Assembly (NCBI GenBank): GCA_014730235.1
Contig: WJIO01000287.1
Coordinates: 1 to 12,050, forward strand
DNA: 12,050 nt
Origin: Candidatus Poribacteria bacterium
Lineage (GTDB): Bacteria; Poribacteria; DTPJ01; WJIO01
Direction of reading: 5' to 3'
Both the position numbers and the translations under genes were made by a program. Shown here piece after piece: positions 2,133 through 11,319 of the stretch; position 1 is the first letter of the stretch; each line of letters begins with the position of its first letter. Under the pieces are notes generated by a model, which searched no databases, was not told the DNA's origin, and saw nothing but the letters and a program-made list of their open reading frames with translations.

Positions 2133-3182
2133 TTGCCTGAGGAAAAAATCCGACTCACGTCATATACTCATGGTGCCGGATGAGCATGCAAAATAGGTCC
2201 TGATGACCTGGCGCAGGTTCTGCGTCAAATACCTGTAATGGAGAATCCGAATCTTATAATAGGCAGCTCGGGTTGTGAAGATGCAGCAGTTTATAAGATT
2301 ACTGACGATCTGGCAGTAGTCCAGACTGTGGATTATTTTACACCGATTGTTGATGACCCCTATACCTTTGGTGCTATAGCTGCCGCTAATGCCCTGAGCG
2401 ATATATACGCTATGGGAGCTGTTCCTACAATGGCCCTGAATATAGCCGGATTTCCGGTAAATGAACTGCCTTTAGAAATACTGGTGGAAATCCTGCGAGG
2501 TGGTGCGGATAAGGCAAAGGAAGCCGGAATCCCCATCGCCGGAGGACATACCATAGAAGATAAAGAGCCTAAATATGGTATGGTGGTAATGGGACTGGTG
2601 CATCCTGAAAAGATAAACACAAATTCCAGCGCAAAACCCGGAGATGTGCTTATTCTTACAAAACCCGTAGGTTCAGGGATTATATCCACAGCCGTAAAAG
2701 CTGATGTCGCGCCGGAAGGCTCAGAAGTTGCGGCTGTTGAGGTTATGAGTACATTAAACAAAGCTGCGGCTGAATGTATGTTAAAAGTTGATGTAAATGC
2801 CTGTACCGATGTTACAGGATTTGGTCTTCTGGGGCATTTATACGAGATAATCTCATCCAGCGGCGTGGGTGCGGAGGTGATTTATGGACAAGTGCCGCTG
2901 ATTCCCGGGACGTGGGAACTGGCTGACGATCTGATCATTCCTGCTGGAACATGCCGTAACCATGAATTTCTGGGTGACGCTGTGTTTTGGGATGATGGTG
3001 TGGAATATGAGCACCAGATGATCCTTTGTGACGCTCAGACTTCGGGTGGACTTTTAATATCAGTTCCAGAGGAAAAAAGTGGCGAATTGATTGACGCTTT
3101 GAAATCAGCAGGTACTCCTGCTGCTGATAAAATTGGCAGGATCGTGGAGGATGAAGATTGTAAAATTGTTGTTTCAAAATAA
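2133..3182 (+). CDS. selD: SelD, selenide water dikinase, selenocysteine-containing
   Basis: SelD makes selenophosphate from selenide and ATP, the selenium donor for selenocysteine and selenouridine. A conventional reading starts at ATG 2238 and gives 314 residues that lack the catalytic N-terminus. Upstream in the same frame, TTG 2133 opens PEEKIRLTSYTHGAG, then TGA (2181-2183), then ACKIGPDDLAQVLRQIPV and on into the ATG-started frame. Reading TGA as selenocysteine gives a 349-residue protein with Sec17 and Lys20, exactly where the Cys17/Lys20 pair lies in E. coli SelD. Downstream are DDAAVY-like CEDAAVYKI, QTVDYFTPIVDDPYTFG, AAANALSDIYAMGA, AGGHTI and TDVTGFGLLGH. A Shine-Dalgarno GAGGTG (2116-2121) precedes the TTG, with 11 bases between. 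A candidate SECIS follows the TGA. The next gene begins 17 bp after the TAA, suggesting co-transcription. Confidence 0.93.
2184..2226 (+). promoter_or_regulatory. Candidate bacterial SECIS downstream of selD UGA
   Basis: Two adjacent hairpins follow the UGA. The first is AGGTC (2195-2199), loop CTGAT, GACCT (2205-2209). The second is GGCGCAG (2210-2216), loop GTT (2217-2219), CTGCGTC (2220-2226), seven pairs including one G-U. The second fits the general bacterial pattern best: a small apical loop with a G in its first two positions, starting 33 bases after the UGA. The first loop starts 16 bases after the UGA and also contains a G. Which one SelB would bind cannot be decided by eye. Confidence 0.6.
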
Positions 3183-3199: not shown

Positions 3200-4447
3200 A
3201 TGGCAAATGGATTACCAAGGCTTAAAATAACCGATGTAAAGACAATACTCACAGCTCCTAACGGTATTCGCCTGGTGATTGTAAAGGTGGAAACCAGCGA
3301 AGCGGGGCTTTATGGGCTTGGGTGCGCTACTTTTACCCAGAGACCGATGGCTGTGGCTACGTCTGTGGATGAATATCTGAAGCCGTTTTTAATGGGTAAA
3401 GACCCGGATCGGATCGAGGATATTTATCAATCGGCCTTTGTTAGCTCATACTGGCGTAATGGACCGGTTTTGAATAATGCTCTAAGTGGAATTGATATGG
3501 CTCTGTGGGACATCAAGGGTAAAAGGGCTAATATGCCGGTATATGACCTACTGGGCGGCAAATGTCGGGAAGCTGCGCCGCTTTATGCTCATGCAGGTGG
3601 TCGTGATCCAGAAGAGGTAGCTGACAGTGTGCGGAAATATATGGAAGAAGGCTATCGCCATGTCCGGGCCCAGGTTTCTGTTCCCGGTTATTCGGTCTAT
3701 GGGGCCGGCGGTGGAAAAGTCACAGGTAAAATCTGGAAGCCTCTTAGCCCTGAACAAAAAGGAGCTTTTGAGCCTACACCATACGTTAACGCAGTTATAA
3801 GGCTGTTTGATCACCTTCGTTCTGAACTGGGTAACGAGGTGGAACTGCTTCACGACGTTCATGAGCGGATTCCTCCTATACAGGCTATAGGTCTGGCCAA
3901 GGAACTGGAAAAATATCGGCTGTTCTTTCTGGAAGATGTATTTGCACCGGAGGATATTGAATATCTGCGGATTCTAAGACCACAGACCAGCACACCTATT
4001 GCCATCAGCGAACTTTTTAATAACATGTGCGAGTATGTGCCTATGATCAAGGACAGGCTTTTTGACTTTATCCGGTGTCATCTGTCCCAGATTGGCGGGA
4101 TCAGTCCGGCAAAGAAGCTGGCTTCATTCTGTGAGTTTTTTGGTATCCGTACTGCATGGCATGGTCCTGGCGATGTTTCACCTGTGGGGCATGCGGCTAA
4201 TCTTGCCCTGGATTTATCCTGTTATAACTTTGGTGTTCAGGAAAGACATGTCTTTAGACAGGAAACCCAGGATGTATTTCCCGGTTGTCCGGAGCTGAGG
4301 GATGGTTACCTTTGGTCAAACGATAAGCCGGGTCTTGGTATTGACATAGATGAAGAATTGGCGGCTAAATTTCCATTCCCGGAACATCCCTTTAATGGCG
4401 CATGGCCTCCGGTCAGGAAATTGGATGGGACGGTGATAAGACCTTGA
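3200..4447 (+). CDS. Enolase-superfamily sugar-acid dehydratase, ManD/RspA type
   Basis: This 415-residue protein belongs to the mandelate racemase/enolase superfamily, in the D-mannonate dehydratase (ManD, also called RspA) group, whose characterised members dehydrate D-mannonate or D-gluconate to 2-keto-3-deoxygluconate. Order of features: N-terminal capping domain with SSYWRNGPVLNNALSGIDMA, then DIKGK; RAQ at about residue 156 followed by PGYSVYGAGG; Mg2+ ligand candidates Asp219 (LLHDVHE), Glu245 (FLEDVF) and Glu271 (ISELFNN), 26 residues apart as expected; His321 in AWHGPGDVSPVG; and the C-terminal GLGIDIDEELAAKFPF typical of the group. A GGGG Shine-Dalgarno precedes ATG 3200, 17 bp after selD. 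The stop is TGA. Active-site variations (DVHE, SELF, HGPGD) make the true substrate uncertain. Confidence 0.88.
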   Translation: MANGLPRLKITDVKTILTAPNGIRLVIVKVETSEAGLYGLGCATFTQRPMAVATSVDEYLKPFLMGKDPDRIEDIYQSAFVSSYWRNGPVLNNALSGIDMALWDIKGKRANMPVYDLLGGKCREAAPLYAHAGGRDPEEVADSVRKYMEEGYRHVRAQVSVPGYSVYGAGGGKVTGKIWKPLSPEQKGAFEPTPYVNAVIRLFDHLRSELGNEVELLHDVHERIPPIQAIGLAKELEKYRLFFLEDVFAPEDIEYLRILRPQTSTPIAISELFNNMCEYVPMIKDRLFDFIRCHLSQIGGISPAKKLASFCEFFGIRTAWHGPGDVSPVGHAANLALDLSCYNFGVQERHVFRQETQDVFPGCPELRDGYLWSNDKPGLGIDIDEELAAKFPFPEHPFNGAWPPVRKLDGTVIRP

Positions 4448-4533: not shown

Positions 4534-4655
4534 AATGACAAGCGTAGGGCATACATGCCGAGAAAGCAACAGCTTGTATATGGTTATCCTGGAAAGTTTA
4601 AGGTGGATTTTTTAATCAGCAGAGACACTTGCGAAATTAAGTATATAACCGATGT

Positions 4656-4775
4656 GGTTTTTCAGGATTAAGTTTGGTAATTATGAGAAACTCTCTCAGC
4701 ATGTCATTCCTGCAAAAGCAGGAATGACATGCTGAGAGAATTTTCAATTACTACCACTCTGAACCTGGAAGAGCC
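4656..4775. repeat. Type A element, near-complete palindrome
   Basis: This 120-bp copy differs from the others: its right half is a close complement of the left-type arm instead of the usual GCATAAAAAAGTTTCTTATC arm. The inner stem is perfect over 22 bp (4692-4713 and 4718-4739) around an AAAA loop, and the pairing continues imperfectly to the ends GGTTTTTCAGGATTAA and CTGAACCTGGAAGAGCC. No matching direct repeats are seen at its flanks. It lies between convergent genes. Confidence 0.75.
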
Positions 4776-6099: not shown

Positions 6100-6127
6100 T
6101 GGTTTACCTCCGAGAGTATATATTTTT

Positions 6128-6269
6128 GGTTCTTCCGGGTTCAGTGTGGTAATAATTGGAAATTCTCTCAGCTTTTCATTCCTGCTTCAAGCTTTTTGAA
6201 AAAAGCTTGAAGCAGGAATGACAGCATAAAAAAGTTTCTTATCTTTACCAAACTGAACCCGGAAGAGCC
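6128..6269. mobile_element. Type A MITE-like element with enlarged core
   Basis: The best-preserved ends of the family are here: GGTTCTTCCGGGTTCA on the left and TGAACCCGGAAGAGCC on the right. Flanking octamers ATATTTTT (6120-6127) and ATATTTAT (6270-6277) match at 7 of 8 positions, consistent with the 8-bp direct repeat of the copy at 1986-2105. The element is 142 bp rather than 120 because the core palindrome is extended by a self-complementary insert (TTCAAGC...GCTTGAA), giving a 22-bp perfect stem (6176-6197 / 6200-6221). It lies between rdgB and the nitroreductase gene. Confidence 0.78.
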
Positions 6270-6379
6270 ATATTTATTAAGATGCCTGAGTTAAGGAAAT
6301 TTTGTAGCAATGTTTTACAACTTTATGTAATAAAAAACTACCCCTGATAACTTTGGTGAAGGATAATTTCTAGAACCGG

Positions 6380-7975: not shown

Positions 7976-8096
7976 TCTTCTTCCGGATTTAATGTGGTTA
8001 TAGTTGAAAATTCTCTCAGCTTATCATTCCTGCGAAAGCAGGAATGACAGCATAAAAAAGATTTCTTATCTTTACCACACTGAACCCGGAATAGAC
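7976..8096. repeat. Type A miniature inverted-repeat element
   Basis: This 121-bp copy has arms that align base for base with the copies at 1986-2105 and 6128-6269. Left end TCTTCTTCCGGATTTA, right end TGAACCCGGAATAGAC. The core is TCATTCCTGC (8024-8033), GAAA, GCAGGAATGA (8038-8047). Its right end touches the argG stop codon. The flanking octamers do not match, so any target duplication is lost. Confidence 0.75.
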
Positions 8097-9299
8097 TTAT
8101 TTTTTTTCTCTGGCAGCTTTAATCTTCAGTGGTAAACCCCATAATTGGATAAATCCTTCTGCGGCTGTATGGTCGAACATATCACCCACCTCATAAGTTG
8201 CCATGGCCTGATCATACAGAGAGTATGGGGATTTAACACCCACAACAGAGCAGTTACCTTTATAAAGCTTTATCCGCACCGTTCCGGTGACTTTTTTCTG
8301 GGATGCTTTTACAAAAGCGTCCATAGCTTCCCGCAGTGGGCTGAACCATAGTCCGTTGTAGACCAACCGGGAATATTCGTGGGATATTTTTTCCTCTTTA
8401 TACCTCACCATATCCCTATCCAAGGTGATTTCTTCCAAGGCTTTGTGGGCATCAAATAATATTGTGGCTGCGGGGTTTTCGTAGGTTTCTCTGGACTTAA
8501 TACCTACCAGCCGGTCTTCTACATAACTTACCCGCCCTACACCGTTTGCCCCGCCGATCTTTGTAAGACTAGCTATAAGATCAACAGGAGACATTTCTTT
8601 TCCATCCAGCTTTGTCGGTTCTCCTGAAATGAAGTCTATTTCTATATATATAGGCTTATCAGGCGCATCTTCCGGTGATATGGTTGTTTCAAATATCTCC
8701 TCTGGTGGCTCTATCCAGGGATTTTCCAGGATACCGCACTCTATACTGCGACCCCATAGATTGGCATCAATGCTGTAAGGGCTTTCTTTTGTGACAGTTA
8801 TGGGTATTTTATGCTTTTTGGCGTACTCTATTTCTTCTTCTCTGGACTTCATATCCCATTCCCGAACGGGGGCTATTACCTTTAATCCGGGATTAAGGGC
8901 CATGGTTGTCACATCAAAGCGAACCTGATCATTGCCCTTACCTGTGCAGCCATGAGCCACAGCATCTGCACCCTCTTCTTCGGCTATTTCCACCAGACGT
9001 TTACCTATCAATGGACGGGCTAAAGCTGTGGCCAGAACATACCTGGATTCGTATATAGCACCGGCTTTCAGGGCGGGGAACACATAGTTTTTAACAAATT
9101 CTTCTCGCAGATCTTCAATAAAAACTTTTACTGCACCTGTGCCTGTGGCTATTCCTTCTACCGGATCAAGCTCTTTACCCTGACCTAAGTCTGCCGTATA
9201 TGTAATAACTTCAGCACTGTATTCCTCCTGAAGCCATTTCAGGCATACGGATGTATCCAGACCACCCGAATATGCCAAAACTACTTTTTTTATTGACAT
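8097..9299 (-). CDS. argG: Argininosuccinate synthase
   Basis: ArgG joins citrulline and aspartate with ATP to form argininosuccinate, the penultimate step of arginine synthesis, in the cytoplasm. The 400-residue length is normal. The ATP-binding motif AYSGGLDTS is at residues 9-17; further marks are ITYTADLGQG, AHGCTGKGNDQVRFD, IPITVTKESPYSIDANLWGRS (part), and the C-terminal half with YNGLWFSPLREAMDAF. ATG 9299 has an AGAGGAG ribosome site 9-10 bases upstream. argH is not adjacent; the gene appears to be a single transcription unit with its own promoter (9377-9405). Confidence 0.97.
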   Translation of the reverse strand: MSIKKVVLAYSGGLDTSVCLKWLQEEYSAEVITYTADLGQGKELDPVEGIATGTGAVKVFIEDLREEFVKNYVFPALKAGAIYESRYVLATALARPLIGKRLVEIAEEEGADAVAHGCTGKGNDQVRFDVTTMALNPGLKVIAPVREWDMKSREEEIEYAKKHKIPITVTKESPYSIDANLWGRSIECGILENPWIEPPEEIFETTISPEDAPDKPIYIEIDFISGEPTKLDGKEMSPVDLIASLTKIGGANGVGRVSYVEDRLVGIKSRETYENPAATILFDAHKALEEITLDRDMVRYKEEKISHEYSRLVYNGLWFSPLREAMDAFVKASQKKVTGTVRIKLYKGNCSVVGVKSPYSLYDQAMATYEVGDMFDHTAAEGFIQLWGLPLKIKAAREKK

Positions 9300-9481: not shown

Positions 9482-10264
9482 TTATCTTGATCTGATTTGT
9501 CCCCACGTGGTAGTCAAGCTGTTGTTGGGGGAAACGGGAGTTGTTGCTGGTTCTTCCTGGACATTATCTGCCAGGGCGTGGGCTGCTTCCGCATCACCTT
9601 CTCCAAAAGCTACATAATATACGATTGTGTCAGATGCGCCATCTGCTATATCTTCTGCCTGGATATCGTGCACCAGATCCATCCTGGTGTTATGGTTACG
9701 GGCTTCTCCGGCGTCAGGGCCGTATATGGCGCCGAATTTGCCATCGGCAGTCCAGTAAACGACATGGGGGAATGGATCTTCATAGGCTTCTATACCTGCG
9801 TTGGTTCCGTTCATTTCAAACATGGGATCATGACCGCTTGCGAAAGAAGGCGTTGCTGCACCTGTGTTGGTTATGGTAACTTCATGTTTGATGTAAGGTA
9901 CGCTGTCATAATAGCTGGCTATGCAAGAATATTCCTTTGTTCCTGCGTCTGCTGACTTGTAGTTAATTACTACATGACTGGGGCCATCTTCGACAATTTC
10001 CCATTCCTGAAGCTCTCCCCAGTCTTTCCAGCCTCCGTAATCCGAGGAATGGTAAAAAGACCTACCACCTTCGTTAATCAGACTGGCTCCGCCGCCTACA
10101 AAGGCCTGCATGTAACCCATCTGGGCTGGCTTGTTCCAATGTACCTCATAATTAGCTGTTTCAATAACTATATATTTTTCAATTTCACTTACGTTTACAG
10201 CTAGAAGCGATGAGGTTATTCCCATAAGCATGATAATAACCATTAGATATATCAATTTTTTCAT
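9482..10264 (-). CDS. Secreted protein of unknown function, paralogue 1
   Basis: I do not recognise the family. The 260-residue product has an N-terminal signal peptide (KK, hydrophobic stretch LIYLMVIIMLMGITSSLLA, probable cleavage before VNV), so it should be exported. The mature part is rich in beta-forming, aromatic and acidic residues: VHWNKPAQMGYMQAFVG, GGRSFYHSSDYGGWKDWG, YYDSVPYIKHEVTITNTG, MFEMNGTN, RNHNTRMDLVHD. The phrase about SVPYIKHEVTITNTG recalls beta-sandwich carbohydrate-active proteins, but that is only an impression. The tail SLTTTWGQIRSR is shared with paralogue 2. ATG 10264 is preceded by AAGGGG; a type B element starts just upstream of this site. A strong terminator follows the gene. 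Confidence 0.85.
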   Translation of the reverse strand: MKKLIYLMVIIMLMGITSSLLAVNVSEIEKYIVIETANYEVHWNKPAQMGYMQAFVGGGASLINEGGRSFYHSSDYGGWKDWGELQEWEIVEDGPSHVVINYKSADAGTKEYSCIASYYDSVPYIKHEVTITNTGAATPSFASGHDPMFEMNGTNAGIEAYEDPFPHVVYWTADGKFGAIYGPDAGEARNHNTRMDLVHDIQAEDIADGASDTIVYYVAFGEGDAEAAHALADNVQEEPATTPVSPNNSLTTTWGQIRSR

Positions 10265-10530: not shown

Positions 10531-11319
10531 TTAATGCCTTGTTCGGATTTGACTCCAGGTTGTAGCTAAGCTATCCACTGGAGAGACTGCTTCCCCGGCA
10601 GGTTCATCCTGAACATCCTGGGCAAGAGCATTTGCATCTGTGGCATCACCTTCGGCAAAGGCCACGTAATAGGTTATGGTGGCAGAATCTCCATCTTTGA
10701 GGTTTTCACCAACACTGTCATGAACCAGATCCATCCTTGTGTTATGATTACGTGCATCCTGGGCATCGGGGCCGTATATTGCACCAAAAAATCCGCTGCC
10801 AGTCCAATAGACACCATGGGGAAATGGATCCTTAAAAACCTGAATTCCCTCGTTAGTTCCGTTCATCTCGAACATGGGTTCATGACCGCTTTGGAAAGAT
10901 GTGACTGCTCCACCATCGGCTGTCACTGTAACCTCGTGTTTGATATATGGAACGCTGTCGTAATAATGGGCTACGCAGGTGTATTCTTTGTTTCCTGCAT
11001 CTTTGGATACATACTGGACAACAGCTTTACCGCCGCCCTCTTCGAGTATGTCCCATTCCTGAAGCTGGCCCCAGTCCTTCCATCCGCCGTAATCTGAAGA
11101 ATGGTAGAAGGATCTACCGCCTGTGTTGATAATACTTTCATCACTGTCGCCTACGAAGGCCTGCATGTAACCCATCTGGGCTGGCTTGTTCCAGTGGACG
11201 GTATATAATTTTGTCTCTACAATAACATATTTATTGTCTTCATCTACGTCAACCGCCAGAAGGGGTAATGTAACACATAGAATCATAAGAAAAACTAATG
11301 GATATAATATTTTTTTCAA
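10531..11319 (-). CDS. Secreted protein of unknown function, paralogue 2
   Basis: This 262-residue protein is clearly homologous to the next gene (by eye about two thirds identical over the full length). It has a signal peptide (KKILYPLVFLMILCVTLPLLA, cleavage expected before VDV); the cysteine there does not sit in a proper lipobox. Shared blocks include VHWNKPAQMGYMQAFVG, GGRSFYHSSDYGGWKDWG, YYDSVPYIKHEVT, FEMNGTN and RNHNTRMDLVHD, and the tail SLATTWSQIRTRH. The start is TTG 11319, supported by a strong GGAGG nine bases upstream and by alignment with paralogue 1. The pair arose by tandem duplication and both copies look intact. Function unknown. Confidence 0.85.
   Translation of the reverse strand: MKKILYPLVFLMILCVTLPLLAVDVDEDNKYVIVETKLYTVHWNKPAQMGYMQAFVGDSDESIINTGGRSFYHSSDYGGWKDWGQLQEWDILEEGGGKAVVQYVSKDAGNKEYTCVAHYYDSVPYIKHEVTVTADGGAVTSFQSGHEPMFEMNGTNEGIQVFKDPFPHGVYWTGSGFFGAIYGPDAQDARNHNTRMDLVHDSVGENLKDGDSATITYYVAFAEGDATDANALAQDVQDEPAGEAVSPVDSLATTWSQIRTRH

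Follow-up and report, generated by a model that had tools for sequence, protein, structure and literature searches.

We asked whether the in-frame TGA near the 5' end of a selD-like gene in a Candidatus Poribacteria contig ends translation or encodes selenocysteine (Sec). The stretch of DNA analysed (12,050 bp, hereafter the window) comes from a Poribacteria MAG of 5.53 Mb in 451 contigs, which is 91.6% complete with 4.8% estimated contamination. A preliminary description of the window had proposed a selenoprotein hidden by a TGA, and its coordinates proved exact: on the forward strand, the gene runs from a TTG start (2133–2135) to a TAA stop (3180–3182), with a single in-frame TGA at 2181–2183, and encodes a selenide, water dikinase (SelD) of 349 residues. 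Translation from position 2100 with TGA as Sec gives ...LLPEEKIRLTSYTHGAG-U-ACKIGPDDL..., and the next stop is reached only at the TAA. The read-through protein matched the selD profile TIGR00476 from profile position 1 (400 bits; curated cut-off, 125), and carries both AIR-synthase-like Pfam domains, PF00586 (AIRS) and PF02769 (AIRS_C). Its N-terminal motif is THGAG-Sec-ACK (UxxK), with Sec at residue 17 and Lys at residue 20. A ribosome-binding site, AGAGGTGG, can be read directly at 2115–2122, 10 nt from the TTG. In the SelD of the nearest relative (68% identical), the ATG start (MTNKKIKLTSFSHGAGU) aligns with the TTG and its own TGA with the TGA of the window, which gives both proteins Sec17 and Lys20. 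The TTG is likewise backed by alignment with the ATG starts of relatives, among which U17 and K20 are invariant. Frame and TGA position are thereby established, and the placement of the Sec/Lys pair originally suggested agrees with relatives at both the Sec/Cys position and Lys20.

If the TGA were a true stop, the locus would be a pseudogene or would yield a truncated SelD-like protein translated only from the ATG at 2238. An ORF with that start does exist (2238–3182, forward strand), and, as had been anticipated, gene calling that ignores Sec recoding would begin there. The resulting protein would be missing residues 1–35, including Sec17 and Lys20, and with them the catalytic loop, whereas 16 conserved residues lie upstream of the TGA and Lys20 lies just downstream. 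The same one-TGA arrangement throughout the phylum, covariation in a downstream hairpin and a complete Sec machinery (all described below) also speak against truncation, which we consider very improbable. Annotation without Sec recoding would lose the catalytic N-terminus of this protein and of every SelD over the cut-off in the phylum; selenoprotein misannotation in general is an already published point (PMC4607533).

The TGA is shared widely among relatives. Of 97 relatives searched, 81 genomes had a SelD over the TIGR00476 cut-off, and exactly one internal TGA was present in 80 of these. Seventy-five of the 80 comprise every over-cut-off SelD from the window's phylum (84 genomes; one in-frame TGA each, 75/75), and the trait is therefore, as read from these genomes, phylum-wide, common to every SelD found in Poribacteria. 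The sole SelD over the cut-off without a TGA, from another phylum (L021), has TGT instead. This Cys-SelD sits at the C-terminus of an open frame of 748 aa, in what looks like a fusion protein. In another 80 named SelD loci, drawn from many phyla, the catalytic site was U in 54, C in 22 and unresolved in 4. When Sec loci were read base by base, TGA occupied the catalytic position in all 29, the window's own included. The only stop in the SelD-homologous frame thus falls exactly at the catalytic Cys position, where the same TGA recurs in 29/29 Sec loci, and is not there by chance. A sequencing or assembly error that turned TGC or TGT into TGA at 2181–2183 would need only a single base change, and the preliminary description had allowed for one; the identical TGA is found in dozens of independent assemblies, and this conservation excludes such an error for all practical purposes. 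The SelD phylogeny groups the protein with its counterpart from G001 (SH-aLRT 99), the only other genome of the window's order in the comparison set, and on the strength of this clade SelD is assigned to the window's own lineage.

Downstream of the TGA, a SECIS hairpin was found by RNAfold and covariation at 2194–2210 (forward strand): UAGGUC (2194–2199), loop CUGAU (2200–2204) and GACCUG (2205–2210). Its core pairs GGUC (2196–2199) with GACC (2205–2208), and the stem extends to 2194–2210. The folding energy for 2184–2225 was -13.2 kcal/mol, and the stability of the window's hairpin alone was not above that of shuffled sequences (z -0.49). The case for a SECIS element is instead one of covariation. 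Across the four core pairs of 59 non-redundant Sec-SelDs, we counted 171 Watson-Crick pairs, compared with 148.7 ± 4.1 when the 3' halves were exchanged between genes (5,000 shuffles, none of which reached the observed value). For example, the second base of codon 22 pairs with the third base of codon 25 as G-C, A-U or C-G in different Sec-SelDs. Relatedness of the sequences inflates this test. However, the same core positions in 26 Cys-SelDs showed no covariation (36 pairs vs 38.5 shuffled), and many phyla were included; for these reasons we argue that the signal in Sec-SelDs is real.

The remainder of the genome bears on how the TGA would be read. The preliminary description had expected selA, selB and selC elsewhere in the genome, and all three are present: two SelA genes over the family cut-off (L001 and L002), a SelB with its winged-helix domains (366.6 bits) and a tRNA-Sec with a UCA anticodon (79.1 bits). 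One TGA read through would also be compatible with genome-wide reassignment of the codon, for example to Trp, Gly or Cys. Within the window, however, a ManD-like ORF ends at TGA 4445–4447, a normal stop as previously noted; reading TGA as U would add only 5 residues to it and would barely lengthen the other long genes. SelA and SelB contain no internal TGA, the tRNA-Sec(UCA) is present, and TGA is used once per gene, solely at catalytic Cys positions. Reassignment is accordingly given almost no credence. With 451 contigs and 4.8% estimated contamination, a foreign origin of the sel genes on other contigs is conceivable.

In at least four more genes of this genome, all in the AhpC/TSA family, a TGA occupies the place of the catalytic Cys codon (the selenoproteome was sampled). 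These thiol-redox-fold genes, L180, L181, L182 and L183, lie on contigs C141, C337, C401 and C17, respectively; the TGA contexts in the set, in no particular order, are TPGUTTEA, TGGUTAEA, DFTFVUPTE and ASWUGCRGE. Judging by motif, we take the TPGUTTEA and TGGUTAEA genes to be bacterioferritin-comigratory-protein-like, the DFTFVUPTE gene to be AhpC-like and the ASWUGCRGE gene to be TlpA/thioredoxin-like. PMC1794560 lists peroxiredoxin and thioredoxin among the proteins with Sec forms. No match to formate dehydrogenase (TIGR01591) over the cut-off was found in this genome or in G001. The latter genome has a Sec-SelD and an SCTUPP thiol-redox protein, but says less on Sec use because no tRNA-Sec over the cut-off was found there (88% complete, 900 contigs). 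The phylum Poribacteria can be counted as Sec-using. Among the papers covered by a literature search, none treated both Poribacteria and selenoproteins, and the selenoprotein record for this phylum may for that reason be new, although Sec-SelD itself is a known kind.

Taken together, the gene almost certainly encodes a Sec-containing selenophosphate synthetase with Sec17 at its active site; that Sec is actually inserted and that the enzyme is active are what we infer from the sequence. SelB carrying Sec-tRNA-Sec(UCA) would bind the SECIS element about 12 nt past the UGA at 2181–2183, and Sec would be inserted at residue 17, in the flexible N-terminal loop of SelD. Sec17 and Lys20 would then act in the conversion of selenide and ATP to selenophosphate, which would serve as the selenium donor for SelA, and hence for the Sec of SelD itself.

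Other features of the window were observed alongside selD. An imperfect, MITE-like palindrome of about 120–160 bp occurs at 1989–2108, 4653–4772, 6120–6277 and 7978–8100, with the core TGTCATTCCTGC-NNNN-GCAGGAATGACA and ends TCTTCCGGGTTCA/TGAACCCGGAAGA. The core is found at 234 places in the genome, and one copy of the palindrome stops just short, by a few bases, of the ribosome-binding site of selD. Two tandem paralogues on the reverse strand (9482–10264 and 10531–11319) encode proteins of about 260 aa that begin with signal-peptide-like sequences (around 71% DNA identity), and matched no Pfam or NCBIfam family over the cut-off.

The two SelA genes differ in architecture. Both lie on the reverse strand of contigs other than the window's (SelA1, L001, 1468–2649; SelA2, L002, 1474–2889). 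SelA1 is canonical (530 bits) and begins only at SelA model position 68; no coding SelA N-domain was found in the three frames upstream of it. SelA2 is full-length and highly divergent (424 bits). G001 has the same pair: its SelA1 (L060) begins at model position 63, and its SelA2 (L062), a fragment at a contig end, groups with L002 (support 100/99, on long branches). Contamination is an unlikely source of the pair because it is present in two separately assembled genomes. In both, the profile of the tRNA-Sec-binding N-domain, PF12390, was over the cut-off on SelA2 only (23.9 bits on L002, with a cut-off of 22), and not on L001 or L060. Elsewhere in the phylum, most of the members examined carry just one SelA, of full length. 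The SelA frame of one further Poribacteria genome (L056, G057:C45) is broken by one TAA, reflecting either an assembly error or a broken gene.

SelA1 keeps Arg86, Arg119, Thr191, Thr192, Asp199, Ser217, Asp284, the PLP lysine Lys285, Arg312 and Arg315 (A. aeolicus numbering), and has Lys at position 220, like most SelAs of the phylum. In the window's genome, SelA2 has lost Thr191 but retains the catalytic set (Arg86, Arg119, Asp284, Lys285, Arg312 and Arg315), and the G001 fragment has lost both Arg86 and the loop with Arg119. In its AlphaFold model (pLDDT 85.8), SelA2 shows a helical N-domain, and Foldseek ranked A. aeolicus SelA first among the matches to the model (3w1h, E = 5.8e-41); a contig scan with SelA2 as the query found no relative. 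Directly after SelA1, both genomes have an alanine dehydrogenase, which was seen at none of 12 other loci checked.

In the survey by Cravedi et al., main-lineage SelA was found to have lost its N-domain only in organisms without Sec use. A Sec-decoding genome with a canonical SelA that has no N-domain and a second SelA that has one does not fit this pattern. It is a real possibility, if somewhat short of probable, that SelA2 has replaced SelA1 as the Sec synthase and that SelA1, beside alanine dehydrogenase, has taken on another PLP reaction. More tentatively, the two genomes would be consistent with a SelA1–SelA2 hetero-oligomer, in which SelA1 would be catalytic and SelA2 mainly a tRNA-holding subunit: SelA2, which evolves fast, has retained the N-domain, and one of the two genomes shows decay of the SelA2 active site. 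That SelA1 works without any N-domain seems unlikely. If the split were true, it would be, to our knowledge, the first time that a bacterial Sec synthase of a Sec-using organism had tRNA binding and catalysis on separate polypeptides, and would offer a direct test of how tRNA is passed on within the SelA decamer, between one dimer and the active site that follows.

Compared with known systems, the Sec-SelD of this gene is a confirmed but ordinary instance, correctly interpreted in the preliminary description, of a well-known and common situation. PMC13188914 counts SelD, with its UxxK motif, among the major Sec-containing families, in keeping with the initial remark that Sec-containing forms occur in other organisms. 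Among prokaryotic selenoprotein families, SelD is reported to rank second in size. With Sec-containing SelD/SPS2 (the UxxK form of TIGR00476), the protein shares the full-length two-domain AIRS fold, the catalytic Sec with Lys three residues on, the single UGA and a SECIS just after it; nothing of substance sets it apart beyond its TTG start and its occurrence in Poribacteria. Cys-SelD of the E. coli type has the same fold and the same Lys20 motif (THGxGC-xCK), but has Cys17 and lacks the SECIS covariation. For the SelA pair, SelA2 has the full architecture of A. aeolicus SelA (3w1h/3w1k), and SelA1 resembles the SelA of Helicobacter pylori (PMC4607533) in the loss of the N-domain. Unlike that case, SelB, tRNA-Sec and selenoproteins are still present here, SelA1 keeps all of the catalytic residues checked as well as T191, T192 and D199, and the N-domain is carried on a separate, divergent SelA.
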